From Micrococcales bacterium (GTDB taxonomy: Bacteria; Actinomycetota; Actinomycetes; Actinomycetales; WQXJ01): 53,387 nt of DNA. Below, one piece after another: positions 5,470-43,975 of the stretch (position 1 is the first letter of the stretch; each line of letters starts with the position of its first letter). A program made the position numbers and the translations under genes. Under the pieces are notes generated by a model. That model saw only the letters and a program-made list of their open reading frames with translations, searched no databases and was not told the origin of the DNA. Location of the stretch: contig WQXJ01000011.1 of NCBI GenBank assembly GCA_009784895.1, forward strand, positions 1 through 53,387, in the 5' to 3' direction.

Positions 5470-6653
5470 GTCGAATAGTCCGCGTTGATGTGAATGTACT
5501 CATGGGTCAAGTCGTTGGTCAGGACGGTGGCCGCCTCTTGGCCGGCCTTGAGGTCAATTTCCACTTTGACCTGCCTGCCGCTTAGGTCAACTAGCTCGCG
5601 GCTGTCTCCAACGCCGCCGCCACGACAAACCCAAATGCCGTTGACGGCCACATCGACTTGAGCCGGGTCGAACGGCGCCACCTCAGGCGATACCGTGCCG
5701 GCGGCGGAAAGGATCCGGCCCCAATTAGGGTCACGACCGGCAATGGCCGTTTTGAATAGGTTGGAGCGGGCCACGGCCCTGGCCACCGCCAGAGCCCCGG
5801 TCTCGCTGGTGGCCTGCTCGACCACGATCTCGATGACATGGTCAGCGCCTTCAGCATCGTCAACCAGTTGGAGGGCCAGATCTTGGCAAACCTTAGTCAG
5901 GCCGGCGGTGAACTTCTCGGTGTTGGCCGCCAGGCCTGACCGACCGGAAGAAAGCAGGAAAACCACGTCGTTGGTTGACATGCAGCCATCGGAATCAGTC
6001 CGGTCGAACGAGTAACGGCAAGCCTGTTTCAGAGCTTGTTTGGCTGTGGCCTGGTCGATTACCGCATCGGTGGTTATGACTACCAGCATGGTGGCCAGTT
6101 CCGGTGCCAACATGCCGGCGCCTTTGGCCATGCCGCCAATGCGCCAGCCGTCGTGTTCGCATTGGGCCTGTTTCGGCACTGTGTCAGTGGTCATAATGGC
6201 CTCAGCCGCGGCCAAGCCAGCTTCGGCGGAATCATCCAGTTGTCCGATGCCGGCGCTTAGGCCGCGCAGCAAGCTCGCCATATCGAGCCGCTGGCCTATT
6301 AGCCCGGTCGATGCCACCAACACCTTAGCCGGGGACAAACCCAAAGCGGCGGCGGCTTGGCTGGCTGTGGTCTCGGCATCGGCCAAACCTGGCTGTCCGG
6401 TGCAGGCGTTGGCCCCACCCGAGTTCAACACCACTGCCACTGGGGTCGGCCCGCCCTTGGCGGCCTGGGCCAGGTGGCGGCGGCACAGCTCGACCGGTGC
6501 GGCGGCGAAACGGTTGGTCGTGAAAACGGCGGCGGCCCGGGCCTGGCCTGGCACTGGGTCAGCCACCACCAAGGCCAGATCCTTCGAACCGGACGGTTTC
6601 AGGCCGGCGGCCAGGCCCGTGGCCTTGAAGCCCTTGGCAAATGTCACGCTCAT
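5466..6653 (-). CDS. argJ: Bifunctional ornithine acetyltransferase / N-acetylglutamate synthase
   Basis: Recycles the acetyl group from N-acetylornithine to glutamate and may also use acetyl-CoA. The precursor is autocleaved into alpha and beta chains; the cleavage motif [14 protein letters not shown] is at residues 177-190, with Thr188 as the expected nucleophile. Total length is 395 residues, normal for the family. The ATG at 6653 has the upstream AGGAG ribosome binding site and overlaps the TGA of a 59-codon ORF that duplicates the argJ N-terminus. Translation of argJ may therefore be partly by re-initiation. ArgJ in this operon implies the cyclic acetyl-recycling version of the pathway. 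Confidence 0.96.
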
Positions 6654-6852
6654 GGGCCAACTCCTAGGTCTGAGGCGGTTGGAGGGTGTTGGGCGAGCCT
6701 TCTTGACGCTGCCCGGGCCTGGCCTGGCACTGGGTCAGCCACCACCAAGGCCAGATCCTTCGAACCGGACGGTTTCCTGCCGGCGGCCAGGCCCGTGGCC
6801 TTGAAGCCCTTGGCAAATGTCACGCTCATGGGCCAACTCCTAGGTCTGGGGC
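6535..6852. repeat. Tandem duplication of the argJ 5' end, period 176 bp
   Basis: Two copies of about 142 bp, at 6535-6676 and 6711-6852, each covering the argJ ribosome binding site, start codon and first 38-40 codons. I see a two-base difference (AG at 6601-6602 versus CT at 6777-6778) and divergence at the outer ends. The near identity points to a recent event. Confidence 0.9.
6650..6829 (-). CDS. 59-residue duplicated argJ N-terminal fragment (leader ORF)
   Basis: A small ORF between argC and argJ made by a tandem duplication of the argJ 5' end. It has its own AGGAG ribosome binding site and ATG. Its first 41 residues equal the ArgJ N-terminus except for Leu18 changed to Arg, after which it runs into ribosome-binding-site-derived sequence and stops. 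Its TGA overlaps the ATG of the full argJ (ATGA), keeping the coupling used throughout this operon. A stable protein function is unlikely because the fragment lacks the catalytic Thr. It may act as a translated leader, or be a by-product of a recent duplication. Confidence 0.55.
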   Translation of the reverse strand: MSVTFAKGFKATGLAAGRKPSGSKDLALVVADPVPGQARAASRRLAQHPPTASDLGVGP

Positions 6853-6887
6853 GACCAGTAGCGGACCCATGAAAGCCCTGTTCGCGG

Positions 6888-8066
6888 TCACGGCGCCACC
6901 CCGCAGGTGGGCAAGCCAGTGGTCTCAGGTAGGCCCAGGGCCAGGTTCATCGACTGGATGGCCGCCCCGGCCGTGCCCTTGACCAGGTTGTCCAAAGCGC
7001 AAACCAGCACAATCCGGTCGGCTTTCTGGTCGAAGGCCAGTTGGATGGCAGCGGTGTTGGCGCCCAAGGTTTGGGCGGTGGTGGGCCAGGTACCTATCGG
7101 CAGCAGCTGGATGAAGGGTTCGTCGCCATAGGCCCGTTGCCAGGGTTCGCGTAGTTTCTCCGGGTCGAAGTTTGGCCCGGGCTTGGCCGTGACAGTGGCC
7201 AAGATGCCGCGGCTCATGGGCACCAGCGTGGGTGTGAAGCTGAGAGTTGGCCTGACCGCCCCTTTTGCCGCGAGGTTGAGCTTTGGCACACTCCCCGTCT
7301 GCTCCCCTTGTCCCGCGAGGTTGAGCTTTTGCACACTGCCTGCCACAACGCCATCGGCCGCGAAACTGAGGTTCTGCACAATTTCCGGAATGTGACGATG
7401 AGTCCCGCCCACGGCATAGGGGCTGGCCGAACCCATGATCTCCGACGCCATCAGGTGTGGCTTATGGGCCTTGCCAGCGCCCGAAGGGCCACAAGCCAAC
7501 ACGGCCACCAGATCATCAGCTGCCAGCGTGCCCGCCGCCAGGCCAGGCGCCAGAGCCAGCGTCACCGCCGTGGCGTTGCAGCCGGGCACGGCGATTGTCT
7601 TCGTCGCCTTGAGCGCCGCGCGCCGCTTGGGCAGGGCCTGGCTTGTCCCCTGTCCCCACCCCGTTAGCAGTTCCGGAAGCCCGTAGGTCCACGGCGCGGC
7701 TGCCTCACCGCCGTAGTACTCACGCCAATCCTCTGGGTCAACCAGCCGGTGGTCAGCGCCTAGATCAAGCACCAGAAGGTCCGGGTCCGCCTTGACCAGC
7801 GCGTCGGTTAGTTCGCCTGAGGCCCCGTGGGGCAGGCCAACTACGACCACATCGTGACCGGCCAGTAGCTCCGGAGTGGAGGCCTGAAGCGTCAGCCCGG
7901 CCAGCTTGGAACCAGCTAGGTGCGGGTGGTGGGTTACGAGCGCATCCCCGGCACTGGCATTTGCGGTGACCGTCTTGACCTGCACCTGGGGATGATCGAC
8001 CAAAAGGCGCAGCACTTCCCCGCCGGCGTATCCGCTGGCACCGGCAACCGCTACTGAGAAGACCAT
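6888..8066 (-). CDS. argC: N-acetyl-gamma-glutamyl-phosphate reductase
   Basis: NADPH-dependent reduction of N-acetylglutamyl phosphate to the semialdehyde. The Rossmann motif VAVAGASGYAGGE opens the protein, the catalytic cysteine is in AVPGCNATA (about Cys163) and the conserved histidine segment is GGTHRHIPEI. I prefer the ATG at 8066, which lies 7 nt after a TATAGT -10 box and suggests a leaderless mRNA; the ATG at 8072 is the alternative. The oddity is an insert of about 30 residues before LSFTPTLVPMSRG: three 15-residue units of the type V(Q/P)KLNLA, whose DNA matches the dispersed satellite repeat at 11.6-12.07 kb. It is the first gene of the operon. Confidence 0.94.
   Translation of the reverse strand: MVFSVAVAGASGYAGGEVLRLLVDHPQVQVKTVTANASAGDALVTHHPHLAGSKLAGLTLQASTPELLAGHDVVVVGLPHGASGELTDALVKADPDLLVLDLGADHRLVDPEDWREYYGGEAAAPWTYGLPELLTGWGQGTSQALPKRRAALKATKTIAVPGCNATAVTLALAPGLAAGTLAADDLVAVLACGPSGAGKAHKPHLMASEIMGSASPYAVGGTHRHIPEIVQNLSFAADGVVAGSVQKLNLAGQGEQTGSVPKLNLAAKGAVRPTLSFTPTLVPMSRGILATVTAKPGPNFDPEKLREPWQRAYGDEPFIQLLPIGTWPTTAQTLGANTAAIQLAFDQKADRIVLVCALDNLVKGTAGAAIQSMNLALGLPETTGLPTCGVAP
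7255..7385 (-). repeat. In-frame repeat block inside argC (three 45-nt units)
   Basis: Three consecutive 45-nt units encode related 15-residue stretches with the cores VQNLSFAADG, VQKLNLAGQG and VPKLNLAAKG. The core AAAGCTCAACCTCGCGG occurs in two of them and again at about 11696-11715 in an intergenic satellite array; one unit shares about 24 continuous bases with that array (CAAAGCTC...GCAAAAG). Confidence 0.8.
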
Positions 8067-8067
8067 C

Positions 8068-8101
8068 TGCATGACTATACACGGTCCCTCATTGTCATGC
8101 A
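8068..8101 (-). promoter_or_regulatory. argC promoter and probable ArgR operator
   Basis: On the minus strand TATAGT (8074-8079) fits a -10 box 7 nt before the ATG at 8066. The region is bounded by a perfect 8-bp inverted repeat, TGCATGAC at 8068-8075 and GTCATGCA at 8094-8101. The inner TGCATGACTATACA is itself a near palindrome of the TGCAT-N4-ATGCA kind, reminiscent of ARG boxes. No good -35 box is evident. ArgR binding is inferred from the operon context. Confidence 0.5.
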
Positions 8102-8158
8102 CTCCAGCGCGCCGCGCCCAATGCCTCGCGGCGACCGCCGCCGGCTGGCGCAGAGGCT

Positions 8159-10690: not shown

Positions 10691-10876
10691 GTAATCGAGC
10701 CGTTCGAGTCGAACTGTTCGTGTCATCGAGCCGTTCAAGTCGATTCGAGCGGGTCATCGAACCGTTCAAGTCAATTGGCTGGTGTCATCGAACCGTTCAA
10801 GTCAATTGGCTGGTGTCATCGAACCGTTCAAGTCAATTGGCTCGTGTCATCGAACCGTTCAAGTCGATCGCCGTCT
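10691..10876 (+). repeat. 31-bp tandem repeat array, six units
   Basis: Units begin at 10691, 10722, 10753, 10784, 10815 and 10846, each 31 bp. The two middle units (10784 and 10815) differ at one base near the end; outer units are more degenerate. Each of the four downstream units carries TCGAACCGTTCAAGTC, containing the small palindrome GAAC-C-GTTC. The period is close to three DNA turns, so the palindromes lie on one face of the helix. There is no unique spacer sequence, so it is not a CRISPR array. Confidence 0.9.
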
Positions 10877-10950
10877 TGGAGGACAGCAGATGCAACGCTG
10901 GCTTGACAGACCCAACCAAGCTGCCCGGGCTCTCGCCGCCACCGTCTTGG

Positions 10951-11340
10951 CTAAGTGTTGAGAGACAGGTGCACGCGAAGGGCATCATCCAGGCGGGCCT
11001 GTGCCTGATAGTTGAGGCTGCCAATGACGCGAACGAACCTTCGAATCGACACCGAACGTACCTGCTCGGCCTGAGCCACCGATGCCACTGGCAGGCCCGA
11101 TTCGTCGGCATCGACAACCGTTTGATAGGGCCGATTGGCGCCAACTGAGGATCGCGTGCGGGTCAAAGGCACAACGGTCAAAACACCGTTGCCGGTCCGG
11201 GTCGCGGCGGTGTTGGCGCCGTCGTTGCTGACCACAACACAAGGACGGGTCTTGTTTTGCTCAGGAGCAACCGCTGGGTCCAGCTCCACCAAGACGATGT
11301 CGCCCCGACGTGGTCCCGCCCCACTGGGAGCTCTTGTCAT
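10951..11340 (-). CDS. mazF: MazF/PemK-family toxin (endoribonuclease)
   Basis: A 129-residue protein with the family signature RRGDIVLVELDPAVAPEQNK followed by TRPCVVVSND and, later, VVPLTRTR and VDADESGLPVASVAQAEQVR, all typical of PemK/MazF mRNA interferases. The N-terminus has a short basic Gly/Pro extension. The start overlaps the preceding antitoxin stop by 4 nt (ATGA). It is probably a sequence-specific RNA endonuclease held inactive by the upstream ribbon-helix-helix protein; the cleavage site cannot be predicted. Confidence 0.92.
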   Translation of the reverse strand: MTRAPSGAGPRRGDIVLVELDPAVAPEQNKTRPCVVVSNDGANTAATRTGNGVLTVVPLTRTRSSVGANRPYQTVVDADESGLPVASVAQAEQVRSVSIRRFVRVIGSLNYQAQARLDDALRVHLSLNT

Positions 11341-11640: not shown

Positions 11641-12070
11641 CATCATGCGAAAGCTCGGACTCGCTGCGTTAGTGCAGGTCACGCAGCGATGATGTCAAAG
11701 CTCAACCTCGCGGCAAAAGAGCTTGTCACGAGGCGGCTGCCGGGCGAGCGAGGGCTGAAGCGAAGGCGCGGCTGGCGGGTTGTAGTCGGGGTTTGGCTGC
11801 GGGCATGTGACTTTGGAGATGCGGCGCATCGCCCCAAGTCACGGCGCGAGACGACAACGCGTCAGCCGCGCCGCCCGGGCCAGTCATGCGAAAGCTCGGA
11901 CTCGCGGTGTTTAGGCTGGTCAGGTGGCGATTATGTCAAGGCTCGACCTCGCGGTAAATGGGCTGGTCAGGTGGCGATTATGTCAAGGCTCGACCTCGCG
12001 GTAAATGGGCTGGTCAGGCAGAGAGTGTGTGAAAGCTCGGTCTCGCGGCGGAAGGGGCTAGGGCAGGGCG
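11641..12070 (+). repeat. Satellite repeats flanking a palindromic element (locus A)
   Basis: Two 47-48-bp units at about 11641-11738, then the palindrome at 11765-11872, then four units starting at about 11883, 11930, 11977 and 12024. Units share ATGNCAAAGCTCGACCTCGC-type cores; those at 11930 and 11977 are nearly identical over 40 bases, with an exact 47-bp period. The block fills the space between the mazE operator and metK. A long plus-strand open frame across it is a product of the repeats, not a gene. Confidence 0.85.
11765..11872. mobile_element. 108-bp palindromic (MITE/REP-like) element, copy A
   Basis: Terminal inverted repeats of 19 bp (GGCGCGGCTGGCGGGTTGT and its near complement at 11854-11872, 2 mismatches) bound an internal hairpin GATGC-GGC-GCATC with GTGACTT/AAGTCAC arms. 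A second copy of 107 bp lies at 43756-43862 in the opposite orientation. No transposase gene and no clear target-site duplication are seen, so a non-autonomous or bacterial interspersed palindromic element is inferred. Confidence 0.65.
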
Positions 12071-20347: not shown

Positions 20348-23300
20348 ATGGCTACAACTCGATTTGGATCCGTCAACAATCCAAAGCGATGGATCGCGGC
20401 CACGGCCTTGGCCGGCCTGGTCTTCGCAGGGTTGGCCACGAGCGCGGCGCAAGCCAACCCGCCGCCTGAGGATGTCACCGCTACGCCGGTGTTGCATAAG
20501 AACACCTCAGATAGCCAGGTCGTACCCGGCCAGTCGTTCACCTACACCATCACCATTGGTTGTTCATCTATTACCGACCGGGGTTGCCGCGACGCGGTTT
20601 TGACTGACGTAGTGCCGGCGCCATTTGTGGTAACTGGCGCGGTGGCGTTGGGTGGAACCAACTCGGGCGATGCCACTTACGCCGGCAACATTGTGACAGT
20701 GGTGTGGACCACCCCCCTGGGCGATGGCACCATTGGCATGCTTGATAACACCACCTCGACAGTGCAGATCACGGCCGAGCTGCCACTCGACGCCTCCTAC
20801 GACTTCAATGGCAGGCCTGTCCTAAACGATGCTGTTATGACTGGCTCCAACTTCGACGATGTCCACGACCAGGTGGCAGTTACCCCCTTGATTCCAAAGG
20901 TGCTGGAGACCACACCAACCAAGACTCTCGACCCGCCAACCCTGGTAGCGCTCCTTGATGAAGCGGTTACGGCCGTGCTAGCAGGCACCAACAACTCCAA
21001 TGGTTCAGTTGAATCTTTGGCTATCCAAGACCCGGTCGACCCGACGGCTACGCCCAATCCCTTCGAATACTTGGAGTTCCAGAGTTTTGGCTCGGTTGTT
21101 CCACCAGCCGGGGCTGATCCAGGCCAAACCACCTACGAGGTCTACGTCGACACCGGCGGTGGGGTTTACGACTGGGTCGACGCCCCCGGCGGCGTGTTAC
21201 CAGCTGGGGTCACCGGCGATATGGTGCGTGGCACCCGCGTCACCTTCTACGGCCTTATCCCGCCAGGAGAGACCGGCACGGTCGAGTTGAACTTGGCTTT
21301 GACGGCCGATGGCGTGGCTCTGGGCGATGGCGCGTTGATCGACAATTCGGTGTTGTCAGAGGTAACGCTCGGTGGCGACAGCGCCACCGGCACGGCCAAC
21401 GACTCGCTGGTGCTGCGCGACAACCAAGTTTGGGTCGGCGCCACCAAAGAGTTCAACCCCTATTGGGTCCTGGCAGGCGATTCGAGCACAGTCACCCTGG
21501 GCGCCTCGAACCAGTCAAGTATTCAGATCACCACGTTGACCATCACTGAACCGTCAAGTGGCACCTTCCCAACTGAGTACACCTTTGGCGGCTTCACCGC
21601 CGGTATTAGATACCCGGCTGGCGCACTTTCGGGGGTTGTGACGGTGTGGATTGGCACCACTCCATATCCAGTGCCGTTTGGTGACGGTGACACTCCGGAC
21701 ATCGCCACTGAGATTGCTCCGGCCCTGCTCTCAGAGGTCGAGTGGTTTGAGGTTACTTTCACCGGGGACATCTTGGCGGGCGGTGACACCGAGATTGTCT
21801 TTGACGTGATTACTGATCCGACCACACCGGGCGTGACCCCGCTGACCAACGAAGTTGGAGTTCACGGCGACAACGGCAGCGCCAGCGATGATGCCACGGC
21901 CCAAGATGACCTCTACATCTACGACGAGGTGATTGAGCCCTACGTCAACAAGTCAGTTCGTCCCACGCCGATTCTGGGTGTGCCCGGCCAGTACGTCACC
22001 GTTTCGCTTGAGGGCGGCCTAACCGATTGGCCCGACCCGCCCACCACTATGACCGGCTCTACCGGCAGCGCCAACCAGATTGTGATCCAAGATCCCCAAG
22101 ATCCGGTTGAGCCAAACGACTGGTGGAACGCCTTTGACCTCTACGCCGTCAGCCAGACACCCATCCCGGCCTGCGCCGAGCTGACCGTTGAGGTCTACGA
22201 CACCACCACCAGCGCTTGGGTTTGGTGGTTTGGCCCAATCCTGGGCGGAACGATCTATTCTGAGGTCTTCCCCGGGCCGCAAGCCACGACCGGTGGCATC
22301 CGGTTCATTTATGACTACGTCGACACACCGCCTTGCCCGGCTGGAGGTTTCCCACCCGGTACCGACTTGGCGCCGAACTTCGTCAGCCAGCTGCGCGATG
22401 ATGGCCGCTACAACCCCGGCCCACCTTTCAGCGACACCAGCTCGACTTTTGTGCCGAACTGCGCCCAAACCGACGCGACCAGCCCCAACGACCCCATCGT
22501 CAGCCCTGGCCAAGCCACCATGCCCCCGGGCACCTGCCCAGAAATTGAGATCCTGCCAGTCCAGCCCGGCCAGGGCCAGGACATGATCGACAAGAGCTTT
22601 GGCCAGTCCAGTTCCGGTGGCATCAAAAGCGTCATTGCCCGCTCGGGTGACACCATTCCTTCGGTGCTGTCCTGGTCCACTGGCGGCTATTCCAACCTGG
22701 ACAGCGTTGAGATCACCGACATCATTGACCCGGCCGGCACCGCCTTGGCCGATTCGATTTTTGACGCCTTCGACCTGCACACCATCCAGGCCATTACCCC
22801 GGCCACTGACCCGCTAATCGCCTACGACCAAGTCCAAGCGGTCTACCTTTACAACCGCACCACCTCGACCTGGGAGCCCGCTGCTAACAGCCCCTGCCCG
22901 GCCGGTTGTGATGGCCAAATGCCAGCCATTACTCTCACCGCCGCCGAGATGGAGACAACCATTGGCGTCCAGTTGGTGATCATCGAAAGCCCAAACCGGG
23001 ATACCGCCTTGCAGGCCAACCCGGCCGGCCCACCGGTTGGTTCCGGCGTGGCCAGTTCCTTTGGCTACTCCCGTCCCATCACACTGGTGTGGCAGGTGCG
23101 TGATAACAGGCGGTCAGACTTCTCACCGGTTTTGGGTGACGAGTGGTACAACCTGCCAGATGAGGGCGATGTACTCAACACTGTGGGCATTACCGGCTAC
23201 CTCCCAGATGGTTCTACCCAGGAAGACACGGCTTCAGATGATGTGCTGATTATCGATGTGCCACTGACCACTATCACCAACAAGACCTGGTCCGGCGGAC

Positions 23301-26300
23301 CGATAGCGGTCCCAGATAGCCCATCTGGACTGACGCCAGATCAATTCCCGGTTTCCCGTATCACCGTGACCACCCGTAACACCACTCCGGCCCGGGTTGA
23401 CCAGTTGGTAATCACTGACCCGGCACCTGGGGCAGTGGCACCGGATACCGATGCTTTTAACGCCTTTGACCTGATCAGTATTGTCTCCATTACGCCGCCA
23501 GCCGGAGCCGACCCGGCCAATACCGTGGTGACGCTGTACTGCACCGGTGGAGCTGAATATGACTTCGACACAACTACGGCTCTGGCCCTGACCTTTACCA
23601 CTATGCCCTGTGCTGATGTGATTGGCATCCAGGTCAGCTTTGACGGACGGATTGCCTCGGGCGGGATTGGCGAAATCGTCTTCGATATGCGGCTGCGCGC
23701 GATCTACCGTGACACCGGCGGCCAGGTCTCGGCCGCAGACGGGCCGCTGTTCAACCGAGCCGAAGGTGTCATTGCCGATGTCGATTCGCCAGGACCGTGC
23801 CCGCCGCCGCCTGGCGCCCGCTACGAATGCGACCAGGCTTCGACCAATATTCCACTGGCCAACCCAAGCTTTGGCGTGGTGGCATCAAAGACAATCAGCC
23901 CCTCCCAGCAGTATGAAGGTGACTACGCGCCGGTCACCGTCACCCTGGGCGGCCAACCGACCGGCTCAGCCCGGGCCTGGACCATGGTGCTGGCCGATGA
24001 CGACCCGGCCTTTTGGAACGCCTTTGACTTTGTTGGTATGGACCCTTCTTGGGCCTTTGCCCCACCCACCGGCCGGGTGCAGGTTTGTTACTACTGGGAC
24101 GGAGACTTCAGCCCAGCCAACGTCGCCGCCGGTGCCAGCGCCGTCGGCGGCACCGAGGTCTGCCAACAATTAGCCCAAATTGGCGACATCGCCATGGCTG
24201 TGTCCTGGCTGACTGCTCAGATGGCCACCCTACCGGCCGATGCCATCCACGGCCTCCAGTTTGAGTTCTGGACGGCCGATGGCTCCGGCTGGGCCAACCC
24301 ATCCAACCCGGTAGTGACGGTGCCTTTTGTAGTTGAACGCCGCGTCACAATGCGCACCGGCGACCCCACGCCAACCACTCGATCTGACCAAACGGCCGCC
24401 CCCGGTCAAGACCAGGCCGGCATCTTCGTTGACGATATGACTGTTGATGCCGAGTCAGTGATCGTTTCCGGTGGCCAGAGATTGCTGGCGGACGATGCCG
24501 CCAACGCCCAGTACCGCCACCTGCACGACACCGTGGCCCTTTCGGTGGTCAAACAACCCCAAGGCGCCGTGCCGCCAGGCAAGGTCATTCCATTTACGCT
24601 GACTTTCACCAACACCGGCATGCTGCCGCTAGTGGATCCAATCTTTTCTGACCGCTTGCCCACTGACGGCACAGGGCCGCAGCTGATCTTTGACCCAGAT
24701 GCCGACCCGACTGTGCCGCCCTGGTCCTTTGCTTTGGCCGGTGCGGCCCCCTCGCCGCCCAATGGCCTGCCGCTACCAACCAGTCCGAATGACGTGACGG
24801 TCGACCAAACCTCAGTCCCCAACGTGATCTACTTCCACATGCCGCCGGGATCGGTGCTGGAACCCGGTCAGACTTACACCATCACCATCAACTTGATGCT
24901 ACGCCCCGGGCTGGAAACAACCGATCAGGCGCAAAACTGGGCCGCCATCGACATTGGCGGGCTGCCGCTTGACTCCTGTGTTTCAACCGAAGACCCCATC
25001 ACCCATGAATGCATGGATGATTCGACCGTCTGGCCAATGGCCGCCCCGGCGCTCAGCACTATCAAATACGTCAAGGGAGATGTCCTGCCCAGCCTGGCCG
25101 CGCCCCTTTCCGGCGTGCCGGACGTTGTCAGTTCGATCAACAACTACGACTGCACCGGCCAGGCCACACCGGACGGCTTCTACCGCGCCCCGTGTATCCC
25201 GGTGACACTGCCAGGTGACACCGAGACTTGGCGCTTTAGTATTACCAACGCCGGTACTATCCCGCTGACAGAGCTGGTGTCCATCGACAACCTGCCCACG
25301 CCGGGCGACCAAGGTCTAATTGTCATTCTGCCGCGGCAAAGCGCCTGGCAGCCGACCTATGCCGACTGGTTCGACAAAACCGGACTGCCAGCTGGGGCCA
25401 CTTTCGATGTCTACACCTCACCGTTGTCTTTGCCCTGCACGGCCGATCTAGACCCACAAGGTGTCCCTTGCGCGTTGGCGGATTGGACCGAATGGGACCT
25501 GACTCCAGACCCAACCGCCGTGCGCAGTTTGAAATTCGTGATCAAGTTTCCCCCTGGTGAGGAGTTCAAACCGGGTGACACACTGTCGATCGAATTCAAA
25601 ACCGCCACCACACCGAACCGACTCAACGCCGCCAACTACCCCGTCGCCTGGAATACCGTCGCCACCGGCGGCCTGGCCGACGATGCCGGCACCAAACTCA
25701 CAGTGCCGGCCACCGAAGGCCGGCGGGTTGGCGTGACCTACGCCACCGGGCCCATCTTGCTAAAGAAAATCGTCACCGGTCCGGCCGCCTCACTAGCCCC
25801 ACTCAATTTCCCGGTCCAACTAGTCTGCACCGTCGCTGGCGTACCAATGAGCGGCCTGCCCATCATCACTCTGGTGGCCAACGGGCCAGAGGTCAGGTTA
25901 GATGGGCTGCCAGTTGGCGCCGAATGCACCGCCACCGAGCAATGGTGGGGACAAACCAGTCACCAAATTGGTACCGCCACCGTGGGCGGTCCGCTTGACC
26001 CAATTGGCCTGATCACCGTCACAAACGATTTCCAAACGGCCAGCCTGCAGATTCGCAAACAGGTTGACACCCCGGCCCTGGACGCCAACGGCGACCCGGT
26101 TGTCTACGGTCCATTCAGCTTTGCTGTCTCCTGCACCTACTTGGGCAGCCCGGTTTACGCTGACGGCTACGACTTAACCCATCCGATGGAAGAAGATCTC
26201 TGGGACGGCAACACCTGGTCGCTGGCAGGCGAAACGCCCACGGGCACCCCGCTGATGCCCACCGGCACCGAGTGCACCGTTACCGAGACGAACAGCGCCG

Positions 26301-27520
26301 GTGCCCTCGACACCGAAATGGTTGTGACCGACGCCCAAGGCAACCAGACCACGGTGCCCGGCAACCAGGCCACCGTCACCATCGATGACCTATTCACAGT
26401 CGAGGTGTTGGGCATTAACACCTTTGGCGCCGGCTCACTTGAGCTACTCAAGACCGTCACCGGCCCGGCCGCCGGGCAATTTGGTAATGGGCCATTTGTT
26501 TTCAATGTGCTTTGCACGCTTGACACTGGTTCAGGACCGGCGACGGTTTTTGACGGCGACGTCACCCTGACCGGCCCCAACAATCTCTCAGCCACCATTG
26601 ATTTCATTGCCGATGGCGCCGACTGCGACATTACCGAGGTCAACACTGGTGGAGCCACCAGCACCGTGATCACTCCGACCACTGTGACGATCGGAAACAC
26701 GACCACGGTCACGGTCGACATCACCAACACCTTCAACGCCGCCGATTTGACCGTGCATAAGGCCGTCACCGGTGCCGGCGCCAGTCTGTGGGGCGCCGGC
26801 CCGTTTGAGGTCACGCTCGACTGCCTAGACGCCAACGGCAATTCCGTTGCCTTGCCTGGTGGTGCCACACGTATCCTGTCGAACCAAAACAGCTTCACGG
26901 CCGCTTATTCGCCTCTACTTCACGGCCTGGTTTGTACGCTGACCGAAACAGGCACAGGCGGCGCCACCAGTTACACCGTGACCGATTCGACTGGCCAAGT
27001 GGTGACCGATTTCACAATTGTGCAAAACCAAGACGTCGAACTGTGGGTCACCAACACCTTCGACCTGGGCACCATCACCGTGCAAAAGACCGTCAGCGGC
27101 ACCCGGGCAGCCTCACTAACCAACGCCAGCTTCATGGTCTGGCTTGACTGCCAGCTGCAGGGACGGGCCATTGCCATCCCCGGCGGTGCCGCCCGCCAGC
27201 TCAAAGCCGGCGCGCAGGTGGTTTACCAGGATTTGCCGGTTGGGGCCCAGTGCACTGTGACCGAAACAGACAGGGGCGGAGCCAGGACGTCAACTGTCAC
27301 CTACGTCGGAACGAACCAGCCCTTCGCTACCGTTGCAGCCAACAGCACCGCCCTCGTCACAGTCAACAATGACTTTGCCAACCTGGCCTTTACCGGCTCA
27401 GATTGGCTCAACCTACTGATCTGGGCTTTTGCCGGCATCGGCGGAGGCCTGGCCATACGACACAGGCGCCAGCCCACTGGTCAACGCCCCGGGCGCCGCC
27501 TGGCCAAACACCGGGCCTAG
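20348..27520 (+). CDS. Giant sortase-anchored surface protein with DUF11-like and five DUF5979-like domains
   Basis: A 2390-residue secreted wall protein of unknown ligand, probably an adhesin or part of the cell envelope. The N-terminus has Arg/Lys residues, a hydrophobic stretch and AAQA-N, a likely signal peptidase site near residue 36. Residues about 40-1800 are beta-rich repeats of the DUF11 class, with a recurring module marked by (N/D)AFD(L/F) at about 22.13, 22.77, 23.46 and 24.02 kb. From about 25.74 kb five tandem DUF5979-like domains follow, each starting like (L/V)xK-VTG and ending TET/TEx-GG-T. The C-terminus is LAFTG, a membrane helix and a basic tail, a sortase sorting signal of the LAXTG type. 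An AGGAAGGTGA ribosome binding site precedes the ATG. No sortase gene is in the window. Confidence 0.85.
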   Translation: MATTRFGSVNNPKRWIAATALAGLVFAGLATSAAQANPPPEDVTATPVLHKNTSDSQVVPGQSFTYTITIGCSSITDRGCRDAVLTDVVPAPFVVTGAVALGGTNSGDATYAGNIVTVVWTTPLGDGTIGMLDNTTSTVQITAELPLDASYDFNGRPVLNDAVMTGSNFDDVHDQVAVTPLIPKVLETTPTKTLDPPTLVALLDEAVTAVLAGTNNSNGSVESLAIQDPVDPTATPNPFEYLEFQSFGSVVPPAGADPGQTTYEVYVDTGGGVYDWVDAPGGVLPAGVTGDMVRGTRVTFYGLIPPGETGTVELNLALTADGVALGDGALIDNSVLSEVTLGGDSATGTANDSLVLRDNQVWVGATKEFNPYWVLAGDSSTVTLGASNQSSIQITTLTITEPSSGTFPTEYTFGGFTAGIRYPAGALSGVVTVWIGTTPYPVPFGDGDTPDIATEIAPALLSEVEWFEVTFTGDILAGGDTEIVFDVITDPTTPGVTPLTNEVGVHGDNGSASDDATAQDDLYIYDEVIEPYVNKSVRPTPILGVPGQYVTVSLEGGLTDWPDPPTTMTGSTGSANQIVIQDPQDPVEPNDWWNAFDLYAVSQTPIPACAELTVEVYDTTTSAWVWWFGPILGGTIYSEVFPGPQATTGGIRFIYDYVDTPPCPAGGFPPGTDLAPNFVSQLRDDGRYNPGPPFSDTSSTFVPNCAQTDATSPNDPIVSPGQATMPPGTCPEIEILPVQPGQGQDMIDKSFGQSSSGGIKSVIARSGDTIPSVLSWSTGGYSNLDSVEITDIIDPAGTALADSIFDAFDLHTIQAITPATDPLIAYDQVQAVYLYNRTTSTWEPAANSPCPAGCDGQMPAITLTAAEMETTIGVQLVIIESPNRDTALQANPAGPPVGSGVASSFGYSRPITLVWQVRDNRRSDFSPVLGDEWYNLPDEGDVLNTVGITGYLPDGSTQEDTASDDVLIIDVPLTTITNKTWSGGPIAVPDSPSGLTPDQFPVSRITVTTRNTTPARVDQLVITDPAPGAVAPDTDAFNAFDLISIVSITPPAGADPANTVVTLYCTGGAEYDFDTTTALALTFTTMPCADVIGIQVSFDGRIASGGIGEIVFDMRLRAIYRDTGGQVSAADGPLFNRAEGVIADVDSPGPCPPPPGARYECDQASTNIPLANPSFGVVASKTISPSQQYEGDYAPVTVTLGGQPTGSARAWTMVLADDDPAFWNAFDFVGMDPSWAFAPPTGRVQVCYYWDGDFSPANVAAGASAVGGTEVCQQLAQIGDIAMAVSWLTAQMATLPADAIHGLQFEFWTADGSGWANPSNPVVTVPFVVERRVTMRTGDPTPTTRSDQTAAPGQDQAGIFVDDMTVDAESVIVSGGQRLLADDAANAQYRHLHDTVALSVVKQPQGAVPPGKVIPFTLTFTNTGMLPLVDPIFSDRLPTDGTGPQLIFDPDADPTVPPWSFALAGAAPSPPNGLPLPTSPNDVTVDQTSVPNVIYFHMPPGSVLEPGQTYTITINLMLRPGLETTDQAQNWAAIDIGGLPLDSCVSTEDPITHECMDDSTVWPMAAPALSTIKYVKGDVLPSLAAPLSGVPDVVSSINNYDCTGQATPDGFYRAPCIPVTLPGDTETWRFSITNAGTIPLTELVSIDNLPTPGDQGLIVILPRQSAWQPTYADWFDKTGLPAGATFDVYTSPLSLPCTADLDPQGVPCALADWTEWDLTPDPTAVRSLKFVIKFPPGEEFKPGDTLSIEFKTATTPNRLNAANYPVAWNTVATGGLADDAGTKLTVPATEGRRVGVTYATGPILLKKIVTGPAASLAPLNFPVQLVCTVAGVPMSGLPIITLVANGPEVRLDGLPVGAECTATEQWWGQTSHQIGTATVGGPLDPIGLITVTNDFQTASLQIRKQVDTPALDANGDPVVYGPFSFAVSCTYLGSPVYADGYDLTHPMEEDLWDGNTWSLAGETPTGTPLMPTGTECTVTETNSAGALDTEMVVTDAQGNQTTVPGNQATVTIDDLFTVEVLGINTFGAGSLELLKTVTGPAAGQFGNGPFVFNVLCTLDTGSGPATVFDGDVTLTGPNNLSATIDFIADGADCDITEVNTGGATSTVITPTTVTIGNTTTVTVDITNTFNAADLTVHKAVTGAGASLWGAGPFEVTLDCLDANGNSVALPGGATRILSNQNSFTAAYSPLLHGLVCTLTETGTGGATSYTVTDSTGQVVTDFTIVQNQDVELWVTNTFDLGTITVQKTVSGTRAASLTNASFMVWLDCQLQGRAIAIPGGAARQLKAGAQVVYQDLPVGAQCTVTETDRGGARTSTVTYVGTNQPFATVAANSTALVTVNNDFANLAFTGSDWLNLLIWAFAGIGGGLAIRHRRQPTGQRPGRRLAKHRA

Positions 27521-27823
27521 CGCCACCTGCCCCCAACGGGTAGAGCCCAGATTCAACCAGCTCCGCCCGGCGCCCTAGACCGGACTGTCCGTTTGGTCAA
27601 AAGCCAGGCGCGGTTTGAACCACGCCCACGCCGCGCCAACGCCGGTGCCAGCCTGGCTGATGGCCACGCCCTCAGGGCGCCTGCGCCGCGCCAGCCTGCA
27701 ATGGCGGTAGGTTAGGGCGCATAGGCTTGGAAATGCGGTAGCCAAGCTGGGCCCTGCCGTGACACGACGCTTCCCCTTCGGTTGGGTGGACCTAGTCACC
27801 ACCGGCACCGCCAGGAGGACACC
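27521..27823 (+). other. Intergenic region between surface genes 1 and 2
   Basis: No credible gene. It has an imperfect hairpin GGCGCGGTTTGAACCACGCC at 27607-27626 (a weak terminator candidate) and TAGGTT/TAGGCT hexamers near 27712-27730 that could be -10 boxes for the second gene. A minus-strand open frame across the region has no ribosome binding site or recognisable content. Confidence 0.4.
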
Positions 27824-30800
27824 ATGACGACCCCAACGTGGCGTAAGGGCTCAAGGACGCTGGGCGCAGCGGCCGTAGCAGCACTGATTCTGACCGGGTT
27901 GACCGCCTTACCCCCAGCCCAAGCCGCCATGCCGGTGCCTTTTGCCCAACGCTTCCAGGTCAACGCCAACGGCGCCATCACCACCTTTGGTAATGCCTTG
28001 TTGACCTGCCAGGCGGCTACGGCCTGCACCACAGCCCAAAACGGGACCACGGCCAACAACAACGACTACACCATGGTCAACATCGATGCCGATACGGACC
28101 CGAGTACCTTCAACTCCTCTGCCTCCAATCTGTCGCTGCCGGCCGGATCAACCGTGCTTTGGGCCGGGCTGTATTGGGGGGCCCGGCTGACAGCCGGTAC
28201 CAGTGGTGCCGCCGGCACCGGTACCCGTACCCAGATGAGGTTGCAAGTGCCAGGCGGTAGTTACCAGACCATCACATCAGCCCAGGAGTTTGGCCCCGAC
28301 TCGACCCAGTCCAACGCCTATCAAGAGTTTGCCGACATCACCACCCTGGTCCAAAACGCCGGCTCCGGCACTTATTGGGGCGCCAATGTGGTGGCAGGCA
28401 CCGGCAAAGACCGCTACGCCGGTTGGTCCATCACGGTGGTTTACTCCGCGCCGGGTATGCCGCTGCGCAACTTGACGGTTTTTGACGGTTTCCAACTGGT
28501 CCAAAGCGGCAAGTCGGTTAGCGTCACCGTCTCGGGCTTCTTGGCACCAACGTCTCCCCCAGTTACGGCCGGGTTGAACATGATGGTCTACGAGGGCGAT
28601 GCTGGCCTGACCGGGGATAACGTCACGCTCAACGGCGCCCAGCTGGCCACGGCCGTCTCCCAAGGCACCAACTTCTTCAACTCCAGTGCTGATGACAACG
28701 GCAGCCTTGTGACCAGCCGCACACCGGCCTACCGCAATATGCTGGGCTTCGACATCAAAGCCCTGACCACCACTAACGTCTTGCCGCCGGGTAACGGCGT
28801 GACGCCAGGCTCGGCCACCTTCGCTTTCAACACTTCTTCTGACACTTACTTCCCCGGCATGGTGGCCTTGGCAGTTGACCTTTACGCCCCGGATTTCAGC
28901 GCCTCGACCAAGTCGGTGGTCAACTTGGGCGGCCACGACCCGGCCAAACCGGGTGACACGCTCGAATACAACGTCACCATTGTCAACTCCGGCCAGGACA
29001 ACGCCGTCAACTCGGTTGTGACTGATTCCTTGCCGCCAAACGTCACCTATGTGCCTGGGTCAATGGAGTTAGTTACCCAGATCGTTGGGGGGACTTCAGT
29101 CATTCTGCCCCAGGCGCTGACAGACGCGGCCGATGCCGATGTGGGGCGTTACGATGCCGCGGCCCGTCGGGTGGTTATCAACGTTGGCCAAGGCGCTACT
29201 AACGCGGCTGGGGGCGAGATTCCGATTGGCCAGCAGGTCTCTTTCAAGTTCCGGGTGACCTTGGATAGTCCCGATTCGGCTGGCACAACTGTGACCAACC
29301 AGGCTGATTTGGCCTACACCGCCAAGGTTTCGCAGGTTTCTTCGAACTACACCACCCCGCCGGTCTCAGTGGTGGTAGCCGAGGAAGCCGATGTTCAGCT
29401 GACCAAGTCCATGTCACCCAACCCGGTCAACGCCGGTGGCACCGTCACCGCCACCCTGCATGTGTTCAATGCTGGGCCTTCGCCGGCCACCGGTGTTTCG
29501 GTGACGGACTCGATGCCGGCCGGTGTCACGGTCACGGCCGTTGATATGTCCATTCCTCCCGGTAACTGCCCTTTGCCCACCGGCCCTGGCCAGCCCTTCA
29601 CCTGCCTGGTTGGGGATATGGCCGTGGGCGATACCGTCACTATCACAGTCACCGGTACGGCGGCAGCCAATTTGGCTCCTGGCCAGCTGGTCAACGTGGC
29701 CACTGCCACCGCCACGACGGCGGACCCGGACTTGTCCAATAACACCGCCGCCGCCACCATTGTCTCTAGGGTCAGCGCCGATGTCGCCATCGCCAAAACC
29801 ACATCGAATTTCGATCCCAAGCCGGGCGAGCTGGTCACTTTCACTTTGACTGCCACCAATCACGGGCCGTCTGATGCCACCAATGTCGTCATTTCTGACG
29901 CCGTCATCACGTCGAGTTACCTCTCCCTGGTGGCGGTTGATCCACTGGCCTCTGGGGCGGTGTGTACCCTGGGCCCGGTTGTGACCCAATGCACTTTGGC
30001 CACCCTGCCAGCTGGTGAGACGGTCGCCGTTGAGGTGACCGGTTGGGTCTCGCCCAGTGCGCCGGCCGGCAGCCCGCTGAGAAACGTCGGCACTGTCACC
30101 GCCGCCACACCCGATCCGGTGATTTCGAACAACCTGTCAACAATTGACATGACTGTGGGCTCACCGGAAGCTGATTTGTCGATTGCCAAGACCGGGCCGG
30201 CCAGCGCTATGCCCGGCGGCACCATCACCTACACCTTGACCGTAACCAACCAAGGTCCCTCGGCTTCCACTGATGCCACTGTCGAAGACATCCTGCCGGC
30301 GGGCCTGACGGCCATCTCCGCCACGTCAACCCAGGGCAGTTGCACCATCTCAAGTGCTGCGGGCATCGACACCGTCACCTGCGACATCGGCCCCATGGCC
30401 GGACCCTCCGCCCCAACCCTGCCCGGTCAGGTGACTGACCCAAGTACCTTGGCCACGGCCACTATCACCATCGTGGCCCGGATCGATCCGGCGCTGACCG
30501 GCTCGCTCAGCAACACCGCCAGCGTCGACGGACCCGAGGACCCGGATGGTGGCAACAACACCACTCCGCCGGTTGTGACTCCGCTGGCCCCACAAGCCAA
30601 TCTGGCCATCACCAAGACTGCCAACCGCACCACTCTTCCCGGCGCTGGTGACGGCGTCACTTACACCGTGACACTGCGCAACCGCGGTCCCTCGGTCAGC
30701 CACGAAGTTGTTATCACCGACCAGCTGCCGGCCGCCTTCGACTTTGACAGCGCCGCCTGGACACTGACCGGCCCTTCGGCCGACGCTGGCGGCTGTTTGC

Positions 30801-33775
30801 CCCTCGGCCCGGTTGTAGGTAGCCACCAACCACTTACCTGCGAAGTGCCGGATATGCCCATTTGGAACCCGTCCGCGCCAGGTGACAACGTTTTGACTCT
30901 GGTGGTGGCGATGACGGCGCCAGCGGGTTACAGCCCGCCGGCCGGCACCACCGAAACCGAAATCGCCTCGGTGCTCGCCATCACGCCAGATCCGATCATG
31001 GTCAACAATGAAGCCACTTGGACCCTGCAAGACACCGCCCAGGTTGACTTAGAGGTCGTCAAGTCCTCCAGTGGCAACCCGGTGGCCGGTGGGCAGGTCA
31101 CCTACACCATCACCGCCAACAACCTCTCGGCGCTCGATAGTGCCGCCGATGTCGAGCTGTCCGACACCTTGCCAGCTGGAGTCACCTTCGACTCGGCTAC
31201 CCCGGCCGGCCAGTGCAGCGCCACCGGTCAGCTAGTGACCTGCACTCCGGCAGGCGGCAGCCTCGCCGCCGGGGGCATCGCTAGCTTCCAGATCCTGGTA
31301 GACATCGACCCCAGCCTGGCTGACGGCACCATGCTTACCAACACAGTCACAGTGACCAGCAGTACACCGGATCCGATCTTGGACAATAACACCGCTTCGG
31401 TGACGGACCCGGTCGCCGCCCAGGTCGACATCCTGGTCGACGCCCTGAACCTGGCCGATGCCGGCGCCGGGGCCTACAACGGCCCGGGTTCGATCCGGAC
31501 TCAGACCTTCACCGTGACCAACGACGGCCCATCGGTGGCCCGGGCTGTCCAGTTCACCGCCCGCCTGGCGGTTGATGCCACGGTTGATGTGGCCGGGCTG
31601 GTTGGCACTATGCCCGGTTGCACCATCAGGGCCCGGTCGATTACCTGCTTGGTTGATAACGGCACCGATGGCAGCTCAGACCTGCAACTCAACCAATCCG
31701 TCGCCGTCACCATCCCGTGGACCTTGGCCTCCAATGTCACCCCTGGCAGCTACTTGGCCGATGGCCTGGTCGGCTGGCCCTACGGCGCCAATGTGACGGT
31801 TTCAACCAGCACCACCGAAACCGACCTGACCAACAACTACCAAGAGGTTGACCTGATCGTTGACCCGGCCCAGACCGATATAGAGCTGACCAAAACCGCC
31901 CTGACCACCACCACTAACCCGGTAGACGGTGACCCCGCCTTCGTGGCTGGTTCGACCTTCACCTACCAACTGACCGCCCAGGTCCTGCCGGGCGCCGCCC
32001 GGGCGGAGAACGTCCAGCTGACCGACACCATGCCTGCCGGCTTTGAGGCCACGGCCGTTGGAACCACTGTTGGTACCTGCCAGGTTGATCCTGGTGGTGG
32101 CTCGATCAGTTGTGACCTGGGCACCATAGAGGGCTTCGATCTGGTGGGCCCGCCGGTGGTGCTGATTACCGTTAGCGGCACCATTGACCCGGCCGCCTTC
32201 TCCGATGGCAGCGGCAGCGAGGTCCAGTACACCAACACCGCTCAGCTAACCTCCAGCACCGACGGCCTAGGCACCAATCCCCTGGCGCCCTTTAGCACAA
32301 CGGCCCAAACCACGGTGGACGTGGTGCGGCAAACCAATTTGTCCATCACCAAGGCGGCTAGTTCGCCCACTTTCACCGCCGGTGGCATAGCCCGTTGGAC
32401 CATTACCGTGGTCAACTCCGGCCCGTCTGATTTGCCGGCCGGCGCCACCATTACTGACACCCTGCAAGCCGGTTTGACCTTCAGCTCGGCCGGCTCCGAT
32501 CCATCGTGTTCAGCCGCAGGTCAGGACGTCACCTGCACGCCTCTGCCTGCCATCGCGGTTGGTGAAGCCGTCAGTTTGCAGCTGGCCGCCCAGATTCCGG
32601 CCGACATCCTAACGACTGATTTGGCCAACCCACCGGTCTTACCTGTTGTTGACGAGGTGACCAACCAAGCCACCATAGACGCACCAAGCCTGCCAGGCCC
32701 GGTGACCAGCCCGCCGGTCGTAACCCCAATCGTGGCCCAAGTTGATGTGGCCATTGCCGGCACCGTCACCCAACAGGTGGTGCCAGCTGGCTCGACCTTG
32801 GTCTACACCATCACCGGGGTCAATAACGGCCCCTCTGCCGCCCGCGATCCGCAGTCCGGTGTCAACTTCCCGCCGGAGTTCCAGATCGATTCGGTGGCTG
32901 TCCCGGCAGATCTGATCCAATGCGCCACCAATCCGACCATTCCTTTCGAAATCGACTGCACCACCATTCCATCTGGTCCAGGCGGCCCCATCGCCTTGCC
33001 CGGCATCTCTGCCACAGGCGTGGTCCAGGTGACCGTGCCAGCCAACACCGCACCTGGGGTCTACCAGGTCCTTGCCCACAATATGATCTTCGACGTTGAC
33101 GGCAACCCGCCGGACTTCAACCCCAGCAACAACATCGCCCGCATCAACGTCCTGGTCATCCCGGTAGCCGACGTTGCCGTCCAAAAAACCACTGTGACCA
33201 ATCCGGTAAAGGCCGGCCAGCCAGTGACCTATGCGCTTGACGTGACAAATTTTGGGCCCTCTGATACCACCGAAGTCCAGTTAGTCGACCAGGTACCGGG
33301 CAAGGCCACCTTCGCCTCGGCCCAGTATTCCGGTGGCGGGGCGGTGGCCTGCACGCCTGGCCCGGCCAGCGAGGACCAGCCGTCCATCACCTGCGAGCTA
33401 GGCGACCTGGCGGTGGGCCAAACCAAGACGGTGCTGGTCACCTTCAACACACCCGCGACGCTGAGCGGCAACCTGACCAACGCTGCGGTAGTCGGTTCAG
33501 TCGCCCAAGACCCGGTGGCAGCCAATAACCAGGCCAGTGTGGCTAACCCGGTGGTGGTAAGCCCGGGTCCCGGCCCCGGCCCTGGTCCAGGCCCCGGCCC
33601 CGGTCCTGGTCCTGGTGGCAGCGGAGCCGGCGGCCGGTTGCCGTGGACCGGCACGGACACGCTCAACCTGCTGGTTTGGGCTCTACTCGCGATTGCCGGT
33701 GGCCTGGCCTTGCGCCGCCTGCGCCACCACGCCAGCGTCAGCCCACGCTATTTGGCCAAACACCTCGCCACCTGA
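27824..33775 (+). CDS. LPXTG-anchored DUF11-repeat surface protein (longer paralogue)
   Basis: A 1983-residue secreted wall-anchored protein. The signal peptide covers residues 1-34 (basic WRKGSR, hydrophobic core, PAQA-A). A roughly 320-residue N-terminal domain contains VLWAGLYWGARL and a DRYAGW segment. Then come about eleven DUF11-like beta-sandwich modules, each recognised by a start such as ADVQLTKS or ADLSIAKTG and the core YTxTVxNxGPS...DxLPAG. A Gly-Pro repeat linker precedes LPWTG, a membrane helix and a basic tail. The ATG at 27824 with GAGGACACC before it matches the start region of the next gene. Such proteins are usually adhesins or stalk-like surface structures; the binding partner is unknown. 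Confidence 0.87.
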   Translation: MTTPTWRKGSRTLGAAAVAALILTGLTALPPAQAAMPVPFAQRFQVNANGAITTFGNALLTCQAATACTTAQNGTTANNNDYTMVNIDADTDPSTFNSSASNLSLPAGSTVLWAGLYWGARLTAGTSGAAGTGTRTQMRLQVPGGSYQTITSAQEFGPDSTQSNAYQEFADITTLVQNAGSGTYWGANVVAGTGKDRYAGWSITVVYSAPGMPLRNLTVFDGFQLVQSGKSVSVTVSGFLAPTSPPVTAGLNMMVYEGDAGLTGDNVTLNGAQLATAVSQGTNFFNSSADDNGSLVTSRTPAYRNMLGFDIKALTTTNVLPPGNGVTPGSATFAFNTSSDTYFPGMVALAVDLYAPDFSASTKSVVNLGGHDPAKPGDTLEYNVTIVNSGQDNAVNSVVTDSLPPNVTYVPGSMELVTQIVGGTSVILPQALTDAADADVGRYDAAARRVVINVGQGATNAAGGEIPIGQQVSFKFRVTLDSPDSAGTTVTNQADLAYTAKVSQVSSNYTTPPVSVVVAEEADVQLTKSMSPNPVNAGGTVTATLHVFNAGPSPATGVSVTDSMPAGVTVTAVDMSIPPGNCPLPTGPGQPFTCLVGDMAVGDTVTITVTGTAAANLAPGQLVNVATATATTADPDLSNNTAAATIVSRVSADVAIAKTTSNFDPKPGELVTFTLTATNHGPSDATNVVISDAVITSSYLSLVAVDPLASGAVCTLGPVVTQCTLATLPAGETVAVEVTGWVSPSAPAGSPLRNVGTVTAATPDPVISNNLSTIDMTVGSPEADLSIAKTGPASAMPGGTITYTLTVTNQGPSASTDATVEDILPAGLTAISATSTQGSCTISSAAGIDTVTCDIGPMAGPSAPTLPGQVTDPSTLATATITIVARIDPALTGSLSNTASVDGPEDPDGGNNTTPPVVTPLAPQANLAITKTANRTTLPGAGDGVTYTVTLRNRGPSVSHEVVITDQLPAAFDFDSAAWTLTGPSADAGGCLPLGPVVGSHQPLTCEVPDMPIWNPSAPGDNVLTLVVAMTAPAGYSPPAGTTETEIASVLAITPDPIMVNNEATWTLQDTAQVDLEVVKSSSGNPVAGGQVTYTITANNLSALDSAADVELSDTLPAGVTFDSATPAGQCSATGQLVTCTPAGGSLAAGGIASFQILVDIDPSLADGTMLTNTVTVTSSTPDPILDNNTASVTDPVAAQVDILVDALNLADAGAGAYNGPGSIRTQTFTVTNDGPSVARAVQFTARLAVDATVDVAGLVGTMPGCTIRARSITCLVDNGTDGSSDLQLNQSVAVTIPWTLASNVTPGSYLADGLVGWPYGANVTVSTSTTETDLTNNYQEVDLIVDPAQTDIELTKTALTTTTNPVDGDPAFVAGSTFTYQLTAQVLPGAARAENVQLTDTMPAGFEATAVGTTVGTCQVDPGGGSISCDLGTIEGFDLVGPPVVLITVSGTIDPAAFSDGSGSEVQYTNTAQLTSSTDGLGTNPLAPFSTTAQTTVDVVRQTNLSITKAASSPTFTAGGIARWTITVVNSGPSDLPAGATITDTLQAGLTFSSAGSDPSCSAAGQDVTCTPLPAIAVGEAVSLQLAAQIPADILTTDLANPPVLPVVDEVTNQATIDAPSLPGPVTSPPVVTPIVAQVDVAIAGTVTQQVVPAGSTLVYTITGVNNGPSAARDPQSGVNFPPEFQIDSVAVPADLIQCATNPTIPFEIDCTTIPSGPGGPIALPGISATGVVQVTVPANTAPGVYQVLAHNMIFDVDGNPPDFNPSNNIARINVLVIPVADVAVQKTTVTNPVKAGQPVTYALDVTNFGPSDTTEVQLVDQVPGKATFASAQYSGGGAVACTPGPASEDQPSITCELGDLAVGQTKTVLVTFNTPATLSGNLTNAAVVGSVAQDPVAANNQASVANPVVVSPGPGPGPGPGPGPGPGPGGSGAGGRLPWTGTDTLNLLVWALLAIAGGLALRRLRHHASVSPRYLAKHLAT
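33562..33617 (+). repeat. GC-rich hexamer repeat coding a Gly-Pro linker
   Basis: Roughly nine degenerate GGYCCY hexamers encode alternating Gly and Pro just before the LPWTG signal of the longer paralogue. The repeat probably spans the peptidoglycan as a stiff linker and could change length by slippage. The shorter paralogue has a different Gly/Pro/Asn-rich linker without perfect repeats. Confidence 0.85.
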
Positions 33776-34027
33776 CAAGGCAGTCAATCCATCTAGCCGG
33801 CCCAATACGGCTCGCCGGCCGTGAGGCGCTGGACTTGAGCCGGGCAGACCAGCCGGCTTGGGCAACGGCCCGCGGCCTGACCGCCTCACCCAGAGCCCTG
33901 ACACTAGCGCCGTTGGCACCACTATTTGGACGTTTTGGCCCGGCCGCCTGAGGCCGAGCCTGGGCCATGTGACAATCCCCGCAACGGTCGGCAATTGACT
34001 GCCTGGCCGCGAGGCGAGGAGGACACA

Positions 34028-43705: not shown

Positions 43706-43975
43706 CCTCTTGGCCAGCCCCTCTACCGCGAGTCCGAGCCTTGGCATGAAAGGCCGGGGCGACACGCTGTCGTGGTCTCGCGCCGTGACTTGGGGCAATG
43801 CTGCCGCATTGCCAAAGACAAATGCCCGGAGCCAAACCCCGCCCACAACACCGCGCCGCCCCTCAGTTCGCGAGGTTGGGCCTTCGCATCATCCGCCCCA
43901 ACCGCGAGGTAGGGCTTTGGCATCATTTCCCCAACCCGCGAGTCCGAGCCTTGGCATGAAAGCGGGTTCTTGACT
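43706..43975 (-). repeat. Satellite repeats flanking a palindromic element (locus B)
   Basis: In minus orientation, three units with the CTCGCGG-type core (cores at 43936, 43902 and 43868, period 34 bp) precede the palindrome at 43756-43862, and one more unit follows (core at 43726). Cores read like ATGCCAAGGCTCGGACTCGC, the same family as locus A at 11.6-12.07 kb and the block in argC. The unit-palindrome-unit architecture is the same as in locus A. Confidence 0.8.
43756..43862. mobile_element. 107-bp palindromic (MITE/REP-like) element, copy B
   Basis: Imperfect terminal inverted repeats of 20 bp (43756-43775 and 43843-43862, 4 mismatches) enclose a perfect hairpin GGCAATGC/GCATTGCC with a 4-nt loop. 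Copy A has GGAGATGC/GCATCGCC at the same place; the A-T pair here is a G-C pair there, a compensatory change. The stretch CCAAGTCACGGCGCGAGAC is shared with copy A. Confidence 0.65.

Follow-up and report, generated by a model that had tools for sequence, protein, structure and literature searches.

The window analyzed here, meaning the whole 53,387-nt stretch of DNA, carries argC on its minus strand. Pfam assigned the N and C domains of semialdehyde dehydrogenase to this open reading frame, the C domain being split over two matched stretches, and the top PDB match of the protein was M. tuberculosis ArgC (2i3a). The ATG at 8072 is the more likely start codon, rather than the GTG at 8102. Copies of a short repeat were located within argC and at two other places in the window, as follows:

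6888..8102, minus strand: argC open reading frame, N-acetyl-gamma-glutamyl-phosphate reductase (translation, Pfam, PDB match)
7260..7349, minus strand: inserted 90 nt or 30 residues, VVAGSVQKLNLAGQGEQTGSVPKLNLAAKG, residues 252-281, equal to two repeat units (missing from sister and distant ArgC; PDB; disorder prediction)
7267..7291, minus strand: repeat core copy 1, GTGTGCCAAAGCTCAACCTCGCGGC, read as SVPKLNLA (profile score 31.1 bits; 24-nt identity with 11696-11719)
7312..7336, minus strand: repeat core copy 2, GTGTGCAAAAGCTCAACCTCGCGGG, read as SVQKLNLA (profile score 29.4 bits)
7357..7381, minus strand: core-like copy 3 over native codons (24.0 bits; comparison with relatives)
11643..12049, plus strand: six core copies, intergenic, 3' of the S-adenosylmethionine synthetase gene (11643, 11690, 11884, 11931, 11978 and 12025; mostly period 47)
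43725..43959, minus strand: four core copies, lying 5' of the gene for elongation factor P and divergent from the gene of an AMP-binding enzyme (profile, Pfam)

Other features were also recorded in the window. At 6532-6853, a 146-nt stretch over the argJ start region is duplicated with 176 nt spacing and 97% identity, which leaves a partial second argJ 5' end between argJ and argC. A 31-nt tandem array of ~5.5 copies (GTCATCGAACCGTTCAAGTCAATTGGCTSGT; 10691-10899), unrelated in sequence to the dispersed repeat, lies just before a PemK/MazF-like toxin gene (10951-11340). Three consecutive very long open reading frames of 2390, 1997 and 1751 aa occupy 20348-39181 on the plus strand. No Rfam RNA family matched the window at the gathering threshold.

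The sequence-only reading had described three 45-nt units in argC that code for V(Q/P)KLNLA-like segments, and these were found in register at 7259-7303, 7304-7348 and 7349-7393, with identities to the first unit of 100, 78 and 60%, respectively. Their coding-strand readings are VQNLSFA, VQKLNLA and VPKLNLA, and TRF reported a period of 45 at 7267-7363. The insert is located between the conserved IPEIVQNL and LSFTPTLVP segments. The third unit, the least consensus-like of the three, starts on the native QNL codons and continues as repeat; VQNL is conserved among relatives, but SFAA is not. Since relatives without the repeat also conserve QNL, this unit is anchored on native codons. The claim that ~24 bases are common to an argC unit and an intergenic unit near 11.70 kb proved exact: the 24-nt sequence CAAAGCTCAACCTCGCGGCAAAAG is identical between 7262-7285 on the minus strand and 11696-11719 on the plus strand, with 0 such matches expected from 100 shuffles.

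Comparison with relatives indicated that ArgC is longer by ~29-33 residues. The alignment with 2i3a stops at query residue 250 and restarts at 286, and the solved chain has 3 residues there. In sister ArgC proteins of the same family (sisters compared here were 55-80% identical at the protein level), 8-14 residues separate the conserved QNL from (I/L)SFTP, with two exceptions that carry an Ala/Gly/Pro/Ser-rich filler, and in distant Actinomycetes the same loop is equally short or shorter. Because the loop is short in 2i3a, sisters and distant Actinomycetes, ~30 residues, or 90 nt, corresponding to two units are extra in this ArgC. This agrees with the earlier proposal of ~30 added residues before LSFTPTLVP, the two clear units covering 7260-7349, and the residues were likewise absent from the other solved ArgC structures. 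The same insert encoded by unrelated DNA was not seen in distant ArgC, and the fillers of the two exceptional sisters are unrelated to the insert in both protein and DNA. In sisters, the DNA that fills the ArgC and KsgA loops is of low complexity, codes for Ala/Gly/Pro/Ser and is tandem in part (for example in L224 and L222); the repeat core was not found in it.

As a separate observation, sister genomes (L010, L012, L221, L222 and L224) hold this unrelated low-complexity sequence both in the ArgC loop and in a KsgA loop near the invaded one, the KsgA filler reaching ~100 residues in G016. This gives the impression that housekeeping enzymes of the host's family commonly gain loop length.

Structure modeling, which had been suggested as a check on the insert, pointed the same way. 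An AlphaFold model of ArgC made from a nine-sequence alignment (mean pLDDT 71) matched solved ArgC structures. In this model, residues 251-281 showed no structure, with pLDDT <50, between helix 238-249 and strand 287-293, and the insert thus looks like a loop predicted to be disordered. The model, made from nine sequences, is supportive only, since it has other low-confidence stretches as well.

Combined in a position weight matrix, the copies show a conserved core of 24-25 nt, TNRTGC(C/G)AAA(G/C)C(T/C)C(G/A)(G/A)NCTCGCGG, followed downstream by a weak NAAAGGGGCTGGTCAGG. Genome-wide, AAAGCTCNACCTCGCGG with up to 2 mismatches gave 158 matches, versus 0 for the reversed control. In the ~0.46 Mb of genome stretches read, which lie mostly around copies, 370 copies scored at least 14 bits, versus 0 in reversed sequence at that score; pattern counts in these stretches and in the whole genome give an estimated total of 406-447 (~400-450) copies. 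With up to 1 mismatch, the core pattern matched 172 times in its own genome and gave 4 single matches across 395 other genomes of the order, and 17 family members contained the core at chance level. Therefore, the repeat is private to the lineage on present sampling. The core was not present in viral contigs. Among copies of at least 20 bits, 60 of 336 lie inside genes, although 82% of the read bases are coding according to a codon-usage gene caller; the repeat is depleted in genes and mostly intergenic. The term "satellite" used in the earlier reading fits insofar as copies do form local arrays, but it is too weak for a family dispersed genome-wide.

Some copies stand alone, and others form clusters with as many as 14 members. 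Direct neighbors are mostly 32-34 or 45-48 nt apart, whereas 5'-facing pairs are mostly separated by 0-8 nt (5 nt being commonest) and 3'-facing pairs by 23-26 nt; direct arrays are far more numerous than inverted pairs. Core identity is high at all distances, but the 3' flank is conserved only within ~1 kb, indicating that the core travels and that core plus spacer duplicates locally. A single core folded no better than shuffles (mean z +0.46), and a near-perfect long hairpin was formed by 5'-facing core pairs only. Over 96 kb, contig C2 (L103-L107) carries ~126 copies, many belonging to a local subtype, AAACCCTGGACTCG, whereas none lies in the initial 40 kb of contig C1; thus, the repeat is unevenly spread and locally homogenized.

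Mapping of the copies, also suggested earlier, revealed further in-frame copies in many genes. At a threshold of at least 24 bits, 49 copies were found in 18 called genes (two contig-end TruB halves counted separately), versus 0 hits at this threshold in 20.6 Mb of a codon-resampled null. They occur in both orientations and four reading frames, and the gene is always left open. RlmN contains four copies of alternating orientation, adding ~60 residues before SNVVFLGMGEPLANY that are missing in 16 of 16 aligned sisters. Inserts were similarly clear against relatives in KsgA (two copies, ~30 residues, ahead of the NLPYNV motif), UvrC (four copies, ~95 residues) and HrpA (four copies, ~95 aa, between two aligned blocks). 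Homology likewise supports internal inserts in an ABC exporter, whose ATPase domain is interrupted by copies, and in truB, for tRNA pseudouridine synthase, which meets a contig end inside the repeats, with its halves on C88 and C102. Less secure are the copies at the N- or C-termini of ThyA, TatD, an alcohol dehydrogenase and an MFS transporter. For the N-terminal copies of the first three, translation may begin only after the repeats, so they were not used as proof. Weak in-gene hits below 20 bits (a Fur-like protein, an LRR protein and others) were dropped as likely chance matches.

In several conserved housekeeping genes, the insertion positions correspond to short variable loops in relatives. 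ArgC, RlmN and KsgA are single-copy hosts: the genome gave one match to ArgC and a single full-length match to each of RlmN and KsgA, and we infer from the open frames and the single-copy housekeeping hosts that the inserts are probably expressed. At another locus, a protein with AAA_12 and REase_MTES_1575 domains (L094, 531-3500) holds at least 14 strong copies in a tandem PVSRESELSQQPPTDL-like tract, which is in effect a new repeat domain built from the dispersed element.

The frames used in genes are F1, F3, R2 and R3, and never F2 or R1, in which stops are most frequent across the 49-nt unit (33% and 55%). The four frames give unrelated, mostly polar peptides, one of them ASPSFGT. Such use of four frames would be expected if copies inserted in any frame and those that broke the protein were then lost, and it counts against selection for one peptide. 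Two strong copies are length-neutral: NadE reads FVRKLNLAAVGAENIQAR versus FDAALGLTGVAAENIQAR in relatives, and GlnE reads LLSRESGLSQQIAQDW versus ILGYDPGAAHTMEEDY in relatives, where sisters were used because the GlnE C-terminus lies outside solved structures. NadE is the weaker case of overwriting, because codon-resampled NadE reached 30.0 bits versus 30.6 observed, and its copy could partly be a coding coincidence. The sequences of NadE, GlnE and the third ArgC unit suggest microhomology-guided short-patch copying.

We consider it very probable that the ArgC insert represents two copies of a dispersed, non-palindromic ~24-nt repeat that spread in one actinobacterial lineage. The absence of the insert from relatives, the restriction of the core to this genome and the in-frame copies in many other genes uphold the earlier proposal that the repeat invaded argC in frame. 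Comparison with relatives shows such in-frame invasion of housekeeping genes, and tolerance of the inserts is strongly suggested. Copies would insert with little regard to site, and any that disrupted a gene would be lost. The survivors would be intergenic, or would lie in genes where the frame and a loop tolerate extra, probably unstructured residues, and local tandem duplication at 45-48 or 32-34 nt spacing would then multiply them. The insert would have no job, ArgC presumably working despite it. How a new copy arises is the weaker step. Our best guess is a short patch made by template switching in replication or repair and seeded by microhomology, which would explain the core traveling without its flanks, the length-neutral NadE and GlnE copies and the half-native third ArgC unit. 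The repeat may also represent a new class of selfish DNA, a ~24-nt non-palindromic unit, usually stop-free in four of its six frames, that needs no transposase to spread and overwrites short stretches of its targets by templated patch conversion, although we regard this as rather unlikely; if true, the unit enters essential genes as in-frame inserts or length-neutral replacements.

A dedicated transposase, encoded here or elsewhere, might instead move a REPIN- or MITE-like element, mobile as inverted core pairs and leaving single cores as remnants. The strict geometry of the pairs recalls BIMEs, their 5'-facing form gives the hairpin noted above, and high copy number in two orientations fits such an element. 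However, direct arrays greatly outnumber inverted pairs, the single core lacks a fold beyond that of shuffles, and both movers looked for, the RAYT/Y1 transposase (PF01797; present in 5 of 14 control genomes) and reverse transcriptase (PF00078), were absent from the ~96% complete genome. Hence this possibility is a serious one but doubtful, and as the copying mechanism template switching is ranked ahead of it as a best guess. Selection of the inserts for protein function, for instance as linkers, interaction motifs or regulatory tails, is improbable: open frames do run across the long inserts of RlmN, UvrC and HrpA in single-copy or housekeeping genes, and the polarity of the peptides would suit such roles, but the same DNA yields unrelated peptides in four frames, copies are depleted in genes overall, and the conserved entity is a DNA core rather than one peptide.

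The sequence-only reading had also offered the alternative that native VQNLSFAADG codons resembled the repeat and were amplified in place. The tandem arrangement of the argC units at 45 nt is in keeping with this, as is the third unit, which begins on native QNL codons yet scores 24.0 bits. The other two units, however, match the genome-wide core, including 24 bases identical to an intergenic copy 4.4 kb away, while the native-anchored one departs most from the consensus; further genes also hold the same core, in different frames and orientations. Pure amplification in situ fails because the core is present at hundreds of other loci, so this explanation is very improbable and largely refuted. 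What survives of it is a weaker form, in which the native GTGCAGAACCTC codons, being similar to the core's 5' half, may have been where the repeat landed. Least probable of all, to the point of being negligible, is an artifact of assembly or binning of this metagenome-assembled genome. The assembly has 111 contigs, some of which end inside repeat arrays (TruB, C88/C102), but it is 96% complete and 0.5% contaminated, hundreds of copies lie on dozens of contigs in separate contexts, the 45-nt units are shorter than a sequencing read, and the inserts keep the frame in unrelated genes.

Rickettsia palindromic elements are described as palindromes of 100-150 bp found in frame in genes (PMC3767692; PMC10969869; Ogata et al. 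2000 as summarized there). As described there, RPE-1 to RPE-3 and their relatives resemble the present repeat in being a dispersed family of one lineage that lies in frame in unrelated housekeeping genes, with the frame intact, at sites predicted or expected to be exposed loops. By the same descriptions, RPEs are palindromic, ~100-150 bp long and common to Rickettsia species, whereas the present core is 24 nt, non-palindromic, confined to one actinobacterial genome and read in four frames and both orientations. The host grouped with Actinomycetes in ArgC searches, unlike the RPE hosts (Rickettsiales). Therefore, size, symmetry, host and multi-frame use set the repeat apart from RPEs as described, and the likeness to palindromic elements drawn in the earlier reading extends to the in-frame entry into genes but not to the structure of the repeat.

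Like the present repeat, REP/BIME elements and REPINs with their RAYTs (PMC3116915) number in the hundreds, measure 20-30 nt and lie mostly between genes, and they form clusters in which spacing falls into fixed classes and orientation alternates. They need palindromes and RAYTs (PMC3116915), neither of which was found when tested here. The actinobacterial repeat further differs in having tens of in-gene copies and predominantly direct arrays.

The nearest known system in size is that of the cyanobacterial small dispersed repeats (SDRs), which Elhai and colleagues reportedly described in 2008 as dispersed units of ~21-27 nt with no obvious transposase. The core length of 24-25 nt fits the SDR size; the phylum and the sequence are different. 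SDRs are not known for broad in-frame gene invasion. SDR5 inserts precisely into HIP1 sites (PMC4390886), whereas no such target was found for the actinobacterial repeat. PARCELs (PMC2996958) are likewise read as protein and shuffled within genomes, but their product is a conserved amphipathic motif of 25 residues within particular repeat proteins, whereas here the DNA is conserved and the peptide depends on the frame.

A search of the literature on Actinobacteria for short interspersed repeats that lie in frame returned nothing, which is weak evidence given its limited coverage. Within the literature found, in-frame invasion by a repeat family is documented mainly for Rickettsia palindromic elements, with related ones in Wolbachia. 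The length-neutral NadE and GlnE copies hint at a way of spreading unlike ordinary transposition. The inserts also offer an independent natural test of which protein loops tolerate random sequence, and they indicate that an intergenic repeat can turn into coding sequence many times within one genome. What is new relative to these systems is a much smaller, non-palindromic and free-standing actinobacterial repeat that has an RPE-like effect in four frames and both orientations.
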